Assembly (NCBI RefSeq): GCF_008831285.2
Contig: NC_045144.1
Span: 19,793,716-19,857,715, forward strand
Direction: 5' to 3'
DNA length: 64,000 nucleotides
Source: Nymphaea colorata
Lineage: Eukaryota > Streptophyta > Magnoliopsida > Nymphaeales > Nymphaeaceae
In this document: positions 25,064-57,331 of the stretch, one piece after another
How positions within the stretch are numbered: the stretch's first letter is position 1
How the letters are laid out: each line of letters opens with the position of its first letter
Position numbers and translations under genes: made by a program
The notes under the pieces: model-generated
What the model was told of the DNA's origin: nothing
Seen by the model: only the letters and a program-made list of their open reading frames with translations
Databases searched by the model: none

Positions 25064-26748
25064 ATGGCAATGAAGCAAACCCATTTGTTCCTCTTCCTCG
25101 TCGCCCTTTTCTTAGTTTTTGCCCTGGTGTTGGCCGGAGAGCAACAACATGAAGAGAGTGAGTCTTATTCGTTGCCTTGAGCCCTTTGACAGTTTGACAC
25201 CCACATGCACCCGTCTTTCCTTTCTTTTATATTTTATGCTTTGTAGACTTTCACTTTTATCCTGGCTAATTTCTTAAGGTTTGTCTCTCGACACAGTAGA
25301 TGGAGGCAGGACTCAAAGTTCCATCCTCTTAATTTTAATGTGTTGCTTTTTATGCAAGCCTGGCTAGATGCTTAGAGGGTGTTTGGTGAGAACATTGTGT
25401 TTTGAGGACACATTTTCCTTACATGTTTAAGAACATCACGCTCTTGATGCCCTCTTAGTGAGTGTTTGATGTGAGGAACAGAATATCACGTTCACAAAAG
25501 TTGCACACCGTTCTATTCTCGAGGTTCGCAGAGGACGGAGTTTCGGTATTAAGGGGATTTTTAAAAGGAAATGTATCTTTTTGGACTTTGAATTTTTCTT
25601 TAATTTTTTTTTTCGTTGTAAGGGGTTTCCCTTTTTATTGATCAAAGTTATTTGGCCTTTACACTACTCCAAGTATAACGAGAATGAGTTCTATGCTCAC
25701 GAAAAAGATGAAAAAAAGGTGGGGAGATGAGATATTTGAAATTGTTATAAAAAAAGGTCTTTTTTAGTCTTTTTATATATATTTTTAAATTTTTTAGTTT
25801 TATAAAAAGTTTTCTTTTTCTTTTAACAAGAAGCATTTTCATTATTAACCATATTGGTGCATAAAAATTTCATGCACCAGTGGGGCATCATAATTTACAT
25901 GTTACATCTTGATGGACCTAAGTTCAGTTATATGAAACAGCAAGCCCGAATCACAACCCTAAAGCCAACTGAAATTTATTAATTATATATGTAGTGTTTA
26001 TATGGGAAAAAAAATTCGCCCGTGGTCATGCGTGGGTTTAGGTTTAAATTTCACAACCGTTAACTATGATCTTGCATTCCCGATATGGATGATTAAACGA
26101 TGGTCAGCTTAGGCCCATCCAATTTTGTAGTAACTATGGTAACCAACAAGATCCAAAAAAGAAAAATGGCGACTTTTTGCATTCGTTGGTTTCTTTTGAA
26201 TTAACAGACAGTAACGAGATAGAATCCCTTACCTTCTTCAAGGCACAATTTTAGATCTGCAAGAGAAATTTGCATAAAAACCGGGGCAGTACTTGGACAA
26301 TCTTTATTTCCTGATCTTTATCTTCTGCAATTTTAACGGGACCATCATCACTGCAGTGGGCCACATATAAGAATTTTGCATGTGGTTCGTGCAGCAAACA
26401 ATGAGGAATTCAAGTACGAAGGAACAATCTTCCCGTCGAATGTCGACACGTAATCTAGATCGATTTGAAGGCTTCTTGTTCTTACTGTTTTCATGGTCTT
26501 CTCTTCCTTTACGTCATACTGCTTCAGGCAATCATCCCAGCTTTTCTCTGTGTTGCTCAGACGAGAACCGCATCAATGGTGCAGCTGGTAAGCTCGACGG
26601 ACTGTTGGGAGGTGGTGGTGGGCTTGGGGGAGGGCGAAGGCCTTGCTTCCGCTGTAGAATTAGAGGTAAATTCTGCTGTGGCTTTATATGCTGCTCTGCT
26701 GAAGAATATGAACAGTACATCAAGGCCCAAGGTGTCCCTCACAACTGA
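25064..26748 (+). CDS. Secreted six-cysteine peptide precursor, member 1 (unrecognised family)
   Basis: Two exons, 25064-25157 and 26561-26748, joined in phase 1 (GA|GTGAG...CTCAG|AC), give 93 aa. Residues 1-25 form a strong signal peptide (MAMKQTHLFLFLVALFLVFA start). A linker with a glycine run (48-56) leads to the cysteine core: C60, C63, C70-C71, C75-C76, arranged C-x2-C-x6-CCG-x2-CC-S, followed by Y81, Y84 and the C-terminal GVPHN. The intron phase and position, the core and the tail match members at 47.2 and 56.9 kb, which supports this gene model. Six cysteines suggest three disulphides in a small apoplastic peptide; a defence or signalling role is only inference. The first exon lacks the RVY(E/D)EK segment of the other two. 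The 1.4-kb intron carries transposon-like sequence near 25375. Confidence 0.75.
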
Positions 26749-27237
26749 AACTGATGGGTGCTGCGCATCATTAATGTTATTAGTATGTAATTTCACATCA
26801 AGCATATGGTTGATGTCTAAATAAGAGCATGTTGGTAGAAAGCATGCAGTTTGTCGAGTGCAAGCATAAGTCCTTTGTGGCATGTGTTTTCCTTGTTTAA
26901 TGAAAACTGAATGAGCTGTTTGCCTTCAAACTTCCCTCATGCACATATTTCTTTGTGTGAGAAAAGAAAAAAAAAAAGGATAGCTGGTTGGATTGGTTTG
27001 ATTCCTTTGGCCGCTACTTCATGATGCATATGGATCTTGAGGAAGATGACATTGTTCATCACCATGAATTTGAGACGTCACAACGAGGCTGCCAATTTCA
27101 TGCAACAATTATTTCGAGTCAATCTGGGATGTAAAAAATATCGTAATGTAGATTTAAGAGTACAAGCTGTCATCTGCATCTCACTTAAAGCTCTTTTTCT
27201 CTTCCCGATCCCTCTGTCTCGCTCTCTCTGTAATCTC

Positions 27238-27245
27238 TATAAATA
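27238..27245 (+). promoter_or_regulatory. TATA box of six-Cys peptide gene 2 (pseudogene)
   Basis: TATAAATA, 79 bp before the ATG, in a promoter nearly identical to that of gene 1. The promoter therefore survives although the coding region is broken. Confidence 0.7.
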
Positions 27246-27380
27246 TAAATAAGCAAAACTCGTTACAATGTACATCCAACCTCGCAGATCTGCTGTTGTT
27301 GCAGCAAGTTAGGGCCATGGCAACGAAGCAATCTCGCTTGCTCCTCTTTCTCATTGCCTTTCTCTTAGTTTTTGCCATGA

Positions 27381-27570
27381 GCGGAGCAAAAAAAATTTCA
27401 TGAGAGGGGCCAAATTAAAGATTTTAAATTTTAACATGAACGGAAATATAATTTTTTAAAAATTTTATACAGAACAAGTAAAATTTTTTAAAATTTAGAT
27501 GTAATTTCTTTAAAGGTAGGGCAAGGGTTCATACAAGCCTCCCATTGGCTTGGCTCCTGGTTTTGTCTTG
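27381..27570. mobile_element. hAT-like miniature element inserted in exon 1 of six-Cys gene 2
   Basis: The insert begins close to AGCGGAGCAAAAAAAATTT and ends close to TTGGCTTGGCTCCT, degenerate versions of the GGCGGAGCCAGAAATTTTTT end seen at 52312. Its interior (GGGGCCAAATTAAAG..., ATACAGAACAAGT) matches a block near 51250-51370. The exact borders are approximate, by comparison with the intact paralogue. Confidence 0.6.
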
Positions 27571-55191: not shown

Positions 55192-55829
55192 GGTAATGTT
55201 GGAATCTGCCTTAAATGTGCCTCTTTCATCGAAGAATACCATTTCCTTGGACTACTTTTCACCGCGAAAACTTTATCATACCAACTGATATTTTAAGCGA
55301 TAGATAGAGAGTCTTTACCAGCATTCTGTTCTTACCCCAGCTTTCCTAAAACCCAGATTTGGCACTAACAATTCAACTTTTAATCTCTTTAAGGGGCACT
55401 CATATATATATAAGGCAAAGCGGATGCAATCACAACAAAATCTTGAGGGTGATGAAGCAGCAGCTAAGTGCAAGGATCAGAAGCAGCAGCTAAGTGCAAA
55501 GATCAGAGGTGATTCAATCCATTTGTAGTCAATGGAAGTAAGTCTACATAGTTGCTGTATGTGGGTTGATAACAGCCTTTCTTCTTTCTTGCAGGCCTTC
55601 TTCCCCAATATCCGTCCTGTGTTCGTCATGCATCCTTCGGCCCAAATTGATGGCGTTCCTTATATCCAACATCATCATCGCCATTCTGGTGTTGGAGTCA
55701 AAGTTTATGGCCAATGAATAGGTAAAGAGAAACGACTGCATGCAGGCGGTCCCTCATCTGCTTGATACTGCAACCACCCAGCCTTACGAGCAAAGGGCTG
55801 TGGAAGAAGAGGAGGAAGAGTTGGAGATC
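55192..55829. repeat. Right arm of a large inverted duplication
   Basis: Pairs with 54294-54913. The spacer between arms is 278 bp. This arm carries an 18-bp insertion near 55624-55641, and homology stops abruptly at GGAGATC (about 55829). Confidence 0.95.
55623..55829 (+). pseudogene. Broken inverted copy of the DUF4408/DUF761 gene
   Basis: The hydrophobic segment MAFLISNIIIAILVLESKF is retained from the ATG at 55650, but the Tyr codon after MANE is a TAG stop (55719-55721), and the DUF761 end is missing because the duplication breaks off at about 55829. Downstream codons still resemble VKRNDCM, QPYE and EEEEE. Confidence 0.85.
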
Positions 55830-56820
55830 TTGACATAAACGTCTTACGTTTTGTTTCGTTAGCTCCGCAATGTACCAGTTACAATTAAACACAAGGTCTC
55901 TACGATTTTCTTCTTTAATCTAATTGCATAGCTTTTTGTCCGGCATGCATGATGAAAGTTCATTTCAATCATTTATCCAAGTACATTTCTGCTACTACTT
56001 GTTCCGGTCCATTTGTTGCTTTCCTAGCAACATAAAAGAATTGTTGAAAATCCTAGTTATTGGTACGAAATTTAAATGAAAGTTGTCATAAATTCTATAT
56101 TTTAGCTGTTATTTGCATAATGATTAGATTTCGCAGGGCAAGACAATACAAAAATTCAAAATGAGAAATATTAGCCGCTACCCACATACCTGCACTCCCA
56201 TATCATATCTGTGCCTATATTCATCCCAAATTTCATTTTGTTTTTTTCACCATTCATTATATTTAATTGGAACGGTCAATGGTAAGCAATATATATATAT
56301 ATATATATATATATATATATATATATATATATACCGGTTCGGTGTCTTTTTTCCGACCTTGAGTATCCGCATGAGCTTAGCCGGGTGCCCAGGCTTAGTG
56401 CAGGGGTGTTTTAGGACCGGTGGTTGTTGAAGCTCGTGCTTACCCGGAAGGTGAAGAGAAAACCTCACGCCACCAAAGCGCTTACCGCTTACCAAGGGAG
56501 AAGGCCGCCAGACGTCTCCGATCAATTGCTTGCCGTCTGACAGCCGAATCTCTGACGCTTTCACCAAGATATACACGTTCCTCACAGAGCAATTAAAGGA
56601 AAGGAAAAAAATAGCCCGAGTTTCCCTCGAGGAGAGGTCATCAGTTGGCGTGAAGTAGAAAGCTTACCGAGAAGAAGATTAAATGTATCCAACTACCGTT
56701 TGTATCAAACACTTACTGCTGTCAATTTGAACGATAAATGTCATAAAACACACCGAAGAAGCAGCTGTGCCAACTTGCCCACCCTGTTTTTCTCCACCTA
56801 ACCATCCACCGGGCTGGCTT
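55830..56820. other. Spacer before six-Cys peptide gene 4
   Basis: Holds a (TA)n tract at 56289-56333 and, from about 56340 to 56570, a GC-richer block; its minus frame contains no recognised motif. Promoter of the next gene begins near 56700. Confidence 0.45.
56289..56333. repeat. (TA)n microsatellite
   Basis: TA run of about 22 units. Confidence 0.97.
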
Positions 56821-56828
56821 TATAAATA
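56821..56828 (+). promoter_or_regulatory. TATA box of six-Cys peptide gene 4
   Basis: TATAAATA, 111 bp before the ATG, the same spacing as in the other intact family genes. Confidence 0.75.
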
Positions 56829-56931
56829 CATCGGCCATGGCCGTTTCTGCACCATCAGTCGATCAATAGAGAGCAGCAGGAGAAGAGTAGTAGCCAGATT
56901 TAGTAGTGGAAGTGTTTACTGCTTATCGAGC

Positions 56932-57331
56932 ATGGCATTGAAGAGACACAACTTGCTCATCCTTCTCTCTGCCCTGTTGCTATGCTTCTCCCTCGTCCTT
57001 GCACGAGTTTATGATGAGAAACTAAGTGTGCACCTGTACTCGATATCTATTCTTGTTAATTTCGGATGTGATCATTAGAAGCTGTACGTTCTGATTGAAT
57101 TCTGTTGCTTTGATTTCAGAAAAGGAGCTAGATGGTAGCAACGTCGGCGGCGCCGGGGGACGCGCTGTAGACCAGACTCAATCTGAGTCGGGTGGTGCTG
57201 ACTTCTTATTGAAGAAGAAACACTGCATGCACTGCAAGCTGTTCATGAAGCACTGCTGCGGCTACTTCTGCTGCTCTGCAGAGGAGTACGCGCGGTACAT
57301 GAAGGGCGAAGCAGTACTCCCCCACAACTGA
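56932..57331 (+). CDS. Secreted six-cysteine peptide precursor, member 4
   Basis: Exons 56932-57025 and 57120-57331, joined in phase 1 over a compact 94-bp intron (CTAA|GTGTG...TTTCAG|AA), give 101 aa. The signal peptide (about 1-24) is followed by ARVYDEKL and KKELDG, shared with member 3. A Gly-rich, hydroxyl-rich linker leads to C67, C70, C77-C78, C82-C83, with Y88, Y91 and a C-terminal VLPHN, one residue longer than in the other members. The short intron makes this the clearest gene model of the family. Function unknown. Confidence 0.85.

Follow-up and report, generated by a model that had tools for sequence, protein, structure and literature searches.

We analyzed a window of 64,000 nucleotides (nt) from Nymphaea colorata (C7:19793716-19857715) that contains three intact genes for small cysteine (Cys)-rich proteins, A, B, and C, and one related pseudogene (27317-29020). 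The four copies have the same layout: a signal-peptide exon, an intron in phase 1, a linker that varies, the core C-x2-C-x6-CCG-x2-CC-S-x3-Y-x2-Y, and a Pro-His-Asn (PHN) end. A six-frame scan of the window for the looser core C-x2-C-x5-7-CC-x2-4-CC returned exactly three occurrences, all on the + strand (26644, 49323, and 57224), together with a degenerate fourth copy at 28946 in which the first two Cys residues are gone. PHN followed by a stop codon occurred four times in the window, once per copy, and tblastn with the A, B, and C proteins yielded no further convincing copy there (remaining matches, E ≥ 0.025). The scan, the gene models, and the PHN ends agreed with the initial annotation, which had listed three intact genes and one pseudogene of common layout.

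The products of A, B, and C are 93, 104, and 101 residues long, begin with a hydrophobic N terminus, and carry their six Cys residues within 17 residues close to the C terminus. Their introns are all GT-AG and split a codon behind its first base; when donors in all phases were ranked, the top-scoring donor was the phase-1 donor in each of the three genes. The acceptor of gene A (26561) follows a pyrimidine-rich stretch and aligns with those of B and C, and an in-frame alternative acceptor would begin exon 2 at 26528, adding 11 residues that include two Cys. The TATA box TATAAATA lies 108, 104, and 111 nt upstream of the ATG in A, B, and C, respectively, and a poly(A)-like signal lies downstream of each gene. 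With one inserted residue of C dropped, the cores were identical at 19/34, 19/34, and 17/34 positions in the three pairs. A chance origin of the six-Cys motif was rejected, since introns, tails, and TATA boxes all line up across the three full copies. The expectation that these would be predicted secreted small proteins with a common phase-1 intron and a variable linker was likewise upheld for A, B, and C.

Protein searches of the plant's own genome (407,766,735 bases in 783 contigs), whose counts are lower bounds, gave at least 56 related places by hand tally, some of them matched only at E values above 1. Most lie in tandem arrays on C7, C2, and C11: 23 at C7 19.82-20.25 Mb, 12 at C7 21.50-21.69 Mb, 14 at C2 1.48-1.57 Mb, and 4 at C11 9.86-9.88 Mb, with 2 more at C7 6.95 and 7.89 Mb and 1 on C1 (three isolated weak matches on C1, C3, and C4 were excluded from the tally). 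Exon-2 open reading frames (ORFs) were read for 39 of the 56 places, including the pseudogene and a broken copy of C. All 39, as read from the listing, have [EQ]-[YF] after the last CC and three further residues (CC-x3-[EQ]-[YF]); by script, Y or F stood at place four or five after the last CC in 39/39, and S or T came first in 33/39. Over the 24 residues ending at the last CC, the Cys spacing of these ORFs, broken copies included, fell into 15 patterns: C-x3-C-x3-CC (8 ORFs), C-x3-C-x4-CC (7), C-x2-C-x6-CC-x3-CC (5), an eight-Cys form (5), a form with twelve Cys in all (4), and ten patterns found once each, some in broken or nearly broken copies. The core spacing, initially described as invariant, is thus constant in the intact genes of the window but not in the wider family.

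Strict six-Cys spacing was present in 5 of the 39 ORFs, namely, A, B, C, the copy of C at C7:19,881,504 (93% DNA identity, with a 2-nt deletion breaking the signal exon), and gene L016 (C7:20.035 Mb). The C1 gene L046, with C-x2-C-x7, falls outside the strict core and was tested within the six-Cys set in the profile test described below. When the whole genome was searched with a DNA pattern for CCG-x2-CC and the start of a Ser-like codon, 54 places matched (control, 6), 8 of which belong to the family (A, the pseudogene, B, C, its copy, L016, L022, and L046). None of the 10 places read among the other 46 has the remainder of the core together with the tail, and a few of the 36 left unread have a possible Ser codon; as far as these places were read, a six-Cys core widespread in the genome was not borne out. 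Some relatives carry repeated modules: a single open frame of 325 residues on C11 (L061, G000:C11:9857595-9858446) has nine Cys tail modules in series, and the C2 relatives L029, L038, L041, and L045 have two each. Four twelve-Cys members show a repeated CC spacing (L031, L033, L043, and L044, on C7 at 7.9, 6.9, 20.1, and 21.6 Mb), and the family signal exon is present in L033, L043, and L044.

We then compared the six-Cys proteins with their glycine (Gly)-rich sisters by means of two profiles. The module profile was built from 20 modules of 14 genes with a four-Cys module (13 full models and a C11 gene contributing 4 of its 9 modules), most of which have Gly-rich linkers, and every protein was scored against 1,000 shuffles in which its Cys positions were preserved. 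No shuffle equaled the score of exon 2 for any of the five six-Cys proteins (A, B, and C, Table 1; L016, 29.7 bits; L046, 17.7 bits), so these proteins are recognized beyond their Cys positions. Of four other Gly-poor members, L017, L032, and L033 scored above all shuffles (L032 barely, 8.2 versus 7.8), and L043 was equaled by 6/1,000. With the exon-1 profile, built from 13 genes, no shuffle equaled B, C, L016, L017, L032, L033, or L043, and 1/1,000 equaled A. The phase-1 donor, 70 to 97 nt from the ATG, was the best in any phase in 27/27 models with an exon 1, the starts of these models having been picked under a phase-1 condition; for the remaining read loci, exon 1 was not found in the DNA examined, except in the broken copy of C and the pseudogene. 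Linker Gly content was 30 to 55% in 11 of the 13 full models with a four-Cys module (L036, 43%; L042, 49%; L076, 55%; the other two were L038, 14%, and L045, 24%) and 0 to 38% in the ten models in which a single framework holds at least six Cys (A, 38%; B, 15%; C, 19%).

The defining features of class II glycine-rich proteins (GRPs) are a signal peptide, repeats of the form [GG(X)3GG]n, and a C terminus rich in Cys (PMC5852109). A, B, and C have a predicted N-terminal signal peptide, as indicated by the hydrophobic N terminus and the signal-exon profile of the sisters, and a Cys-rich C-terminal domain homologous to the sisters' module; the repeat region is absent, since only A has a GGGGGLGGG stretch, and it has no repeats. 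No Pfam family was above its cutoff for A, B, or C, and at E values up to 10 no family other than GRP (PF07172; cutoff, 30 bits) appeared. The C2 sister L030 passes PF07172 (35.6 bits), L036 (28.0 bits) and L041 (25.0 bits) fall just under the cutoff, and of five PF07172 places in a genome search, the best (31.2 bits) belongs to the C2 array. In the three sisters the match spans the signal and Gly-rich parts (residues 9-87, 1-89, and 6-72, respectively) and stops before the Cys module, and two Gly-rich exon-2 pieces scanned without a signal exon gave no GRP match. Conotoxin matches in 3/8 relatives (9.7 to 14.9 bits; cutoff, 25.1) were below threshold and were taken as chance. The PDB held no meaningful sequence relative of C, the sole window protein searched there, and no paper on these genes was found in a search of open-licence papers.

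As judged by sequence comparison, the genes of the window are tied to their sisters by a common signal exon (weaker for A and unrecognized in L046), the phase-1 intron, a homologous tail module, the arrays, and one sister's GRP match. We are confident of the placement of A, B, and C in this family, and we consider it probable that they are Gly-poor, Cys-enriched members of a large tandem family whose Gly-rich members show class II GRP architecture. The proposal that A, B, and C stand apart from every named family was not supported: Gly-rich sisters share their signal exon, intron phase, and tail, and one of these sisters passes GRP. Calling the family undescribed is accurate in that no Pfam family passes for A, B, or C but goes too far in that their relatives show class II GRP architecture. 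By class II GRP we mean the architecture of the sister genes as read from their sequences, and we claim no common descent with the Cys domain of AtGRP3.

Several results weigh against this placement. The GRP match of A (18.8 bits, residues 1-56) is below the cutoff, and B and C are unmatched; five of the eight full-length relatives scanned (L016, L046, L033, L045, and L070) were also without a GRP match. Exon 1 of L046 was not recognized by the exon-1 profile (226/1,000 shuffles equal). A provisional AtGRP3 tail sequence scored -14.5 bits against the module profile and was equaled by 991/1,000 shuffles, so common descent with the AtGRP3 Cys domain is not supported by this comparison. A tree of 23 models based on the signal exon and tail had low support, with 12/20 inner branches open, and in none of 200 bootstrap trees (0%) did the five six-Cys models come together; L016 grouped with L017 (84/76) and not with A, B, and C. 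Because the tree has no single six-Cys clade, the six-Cys pattern may be older than the C7 arrays or may have arisen more than once within them.

An alternative is that A, B, and C belong to an independent, unnamed family of secreted signaling peptides, whose linker would be cleaved and whose six-Cys part would be the ligand of a receptor kinase. AlphaFold, given the three window exon-2 proteins only, predicted a disordered linker (block predicted local distance difference test score [pLDDT] of about 40) and confined order to the core (block pLDDT, 67-78), with an overall pLDDT of 57.9 and a predicted template modeling score of 0.38. This confinement is consistent with a signaling role, as are the absence of a Pfam family above cutoff and the retention of core spacing across copies with only 17 to 19 of 34 core residues identical while the linkers differ. 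However, classical peptide-hormone families keep their Cys framework, whereas here the framework varies in the wider family, and the tail and signal exon are homologous to those of Gly-rich sisters. We regard this explanation as unlikely.

We give still less credence to the idea that the genes encode disulfide-rich antimicrobial peptides of plant defense, tandemly expanded in the manner of defensin arrays. Tandem arrays, broken copies, many Cys frameworks, and small proteins with a signal exon would all fit it, but the ratio of nonsynonymous to synonymous substitution rates (dN/dS) argues otherwise: between C and its copy at C7:19.88 Mb it was 0.11 over 69 codons, from the few changes available (6 synonymous and 3 nonsynonymous). 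Nor is the [EQ]-[YF] tail, present in every ORF read, usual in cationic antimicrobial peptides. The dN/dS of this pair was low in both the linker (0.10) and the core (0.20), and its 9 changes are too few to tell linker from core; selection acting on a processed C-terminal part, as initially suggested, was therefore not substantiated. Comparisons of the cores among A, B, and C gave dN values of 0.31 to 0.43, with synonymous sites saturated in two of the three pairs and a dN/dS of 0.46 in the third. Secreted metal-binding or redox proteins, with C-x2-C plus CCG-x2-CC as a zinc or copper site in place of three disulfides, are improbable: the C-x2-C and CC pairs and the predicted core (strands at 35-38, 43-46, and 49-51 and a helix at 53-60 of 69 residues, the helix beginning directly after CC-S) are compatible with such a site, but the four-Cys sisters have no C-x2-C-x6 part, a VIA-align comparison of a single chain gave no structural match, and the secretory route favors disulfides.

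The pseudogene arose as a tandem duplicate of the A locus, with which it aligns in seven blocks of 67 to 86% identity (24767-26788 of A versus 27050-29058). Its signal exon breaks off near 27380 and is followed by a dispersed repeat that is also present elsewhere in the window, and the dN/dS between exon 2 of A and that of the pseudogene was 1.49 over 30 codons, as expected for a dead copy. Its remnants, the exons of the intact genes, and other features of the window are collected in Table 1.

Table 1. Features of the window, with positions counted from its first nucleotide
Feature	Position	Strand	Description
Gene A, TATA box	24956..24963	+	
Gene A, exon 1	25064..25157	+	Signal peptide, phase-1 end; best donor AGAGTGAGT; exon-1 profile of 13 sisters 13.7 bits, 1/1,000 shuffles equal
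Gene A, exon 2	26561..26748	+	Linker with GGGGGLGGG, six-Cys core 26644-26694, PHN end; module profile 20.5 bits, 0/1,000 shuffles
Gene B, TATA box	47106..47113	+	
Gene B, exon 1	47210..47306	+	Signal peptide, phase-1 end; exon-1 profile 14.3 bits, 0/1,000 shuffles
Gene B, exon 2	49210..49427	+	Linker, six-Cys core 49323-49373, PHN end; module profile 15.2 bits, 0/1,000 shuffles
Gene C, TATA box	56821..56828	+	
Gene C, exon 1	56932..57025	+	Signal peptide, phase-1 end; exon-1 profile 31.0 bits, 0/1,000 shuffles
Gene C, exon 2	57120..57331	+	Linker, six-Cys core 57224-57274, LPHN end; module profile 23.2 bits, 0/1,000 shuffles
Pseudogene, exon 1 remnant	27317..27379	+	tblastn with A, 61.9% over 21 residues
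Pseudogene, exon 2 remnant	28881..29020	+	First two Cys gone, PHN end retained
Dispersed repeat	27383-27511 / 51247-51375		80% identity; at break point of pseudogene signal exon
Small GTPase	4256-5853	-	Ras superfamily (Pfam)
Proteinase-inhibitor-like protein	10337-10792	-	Passes Pfam SQAPI (39.9 bits; cutoff, 31)
Proteinase-inhibitor-like protein	13812-14210	-	Similar to the preceding; below SQAPI cutoff (24.8 bits)
Polygalacturonase-type gene pieces	19202-19546 and 20959-21369	+	Pfam GH28, pectin-cutting family; close to the peptide genes
DUF761 protein	54204-54563	-	Pfam
Transporter	60894-63999	-	Na/sulfate-symporter family (Pfam)
Direct tandem duplication	4828-5203		188 nt; 97-98% identity for the three duplications
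Direct tandem duplication	40227-40543		158 nt
Direct tandem duplication	16195-16319		61 nt

If A, B, and C are Gly-poor members of a family with class II GRP architecture, as we favor, the conserved unit would be the C-terminal module ending in CC-x3-[EQ]-[YF], onto which varied Cys frameworks and linkers have been built. The signal peptide would be cleaved off and the protein delivered to the apoplast or wall, its cysteines presumably forming disulfides in the oxidizing secretory route. The linker might act as a spacer or make contact with the wall, and the folded tail module could offer a binding surface for a protein partner. The leading candidate for that partner would be the ectodomain of a wall-associated kinase (WAK) or pectin, by analogy with the AtGRP3-WAK1 and CpGRP1-CpWAK1 pairs. 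The Cys-rich domain of AtGRP3 is required for WAK1 binding (PMC4777284, PMC4783359), and CpGRP1 binds both CpWAK1 and pectin (PMC8021526). The WAK galacturonan-binding domain was found at 38 places in the genome, including 17 at C11 14.77-15.22 Mb. Given these places and the AtGRP3 and CpGRP1 precedents, a WAK-type partner is possible; we offer WAK or pectin as the partner tentatively and with some doubt.

A broader scenario is conceivable, although we would not rely on it. A Gly-rich family may have given rise, by radiation in tandem arrays, to small Cys-rich proteins whose Cys framework was freely rebuilt (4, 6, 8, or 12 Cys) as Gly was lost, while the tail CC-x3-[EQ]-[YF] was kept. The tail, and not the Cys fold, would then be the constant binding surface, the reverse of the situation in most cysteine-rich peptide families. 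If this were true, the arrays would supply natural variants, with a shrinking Gly part and a growing Cys part, for mapping the residues involved in WAK binding, and they would record one route from glycine-rich proteins to small cysteine-rich peptides, probably in an early-branching flowering plant.

Among known systems, defensins, snakin/GASA, EPF, and RALF are small, secreted, Cys rich, and often tandem, and A, B, and C resemble them in this; they differ in that A, B, and C match none of these families in Pfam at E values up to 10, and the spacing C-x2-C-x6-CCG-x2-CC-S is not known from any of them. The Pfam GRP family, passed by the C2 sister L030, is not passed by A, B, or C. The Cys spacing that we take to be that of AtGRP3 is unlike the spacing of A, B, and C, and the linkers of B and C, low in Gly, also depart from class II GRPs. 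In Chinese cabbage, GRP genes of classes I and II contain one or two exons (PMC7396569). With class II GRPs such as AtGRP3 and CpGRP1, the proteins have in common a signal peptide, a middle linker (Gly rich in A and in most of the four-Cys sisters), and a Cys-rich C terminus, and the six-Cys proteins look less like an entirely unknown family than like a new twist on an architecture already known.

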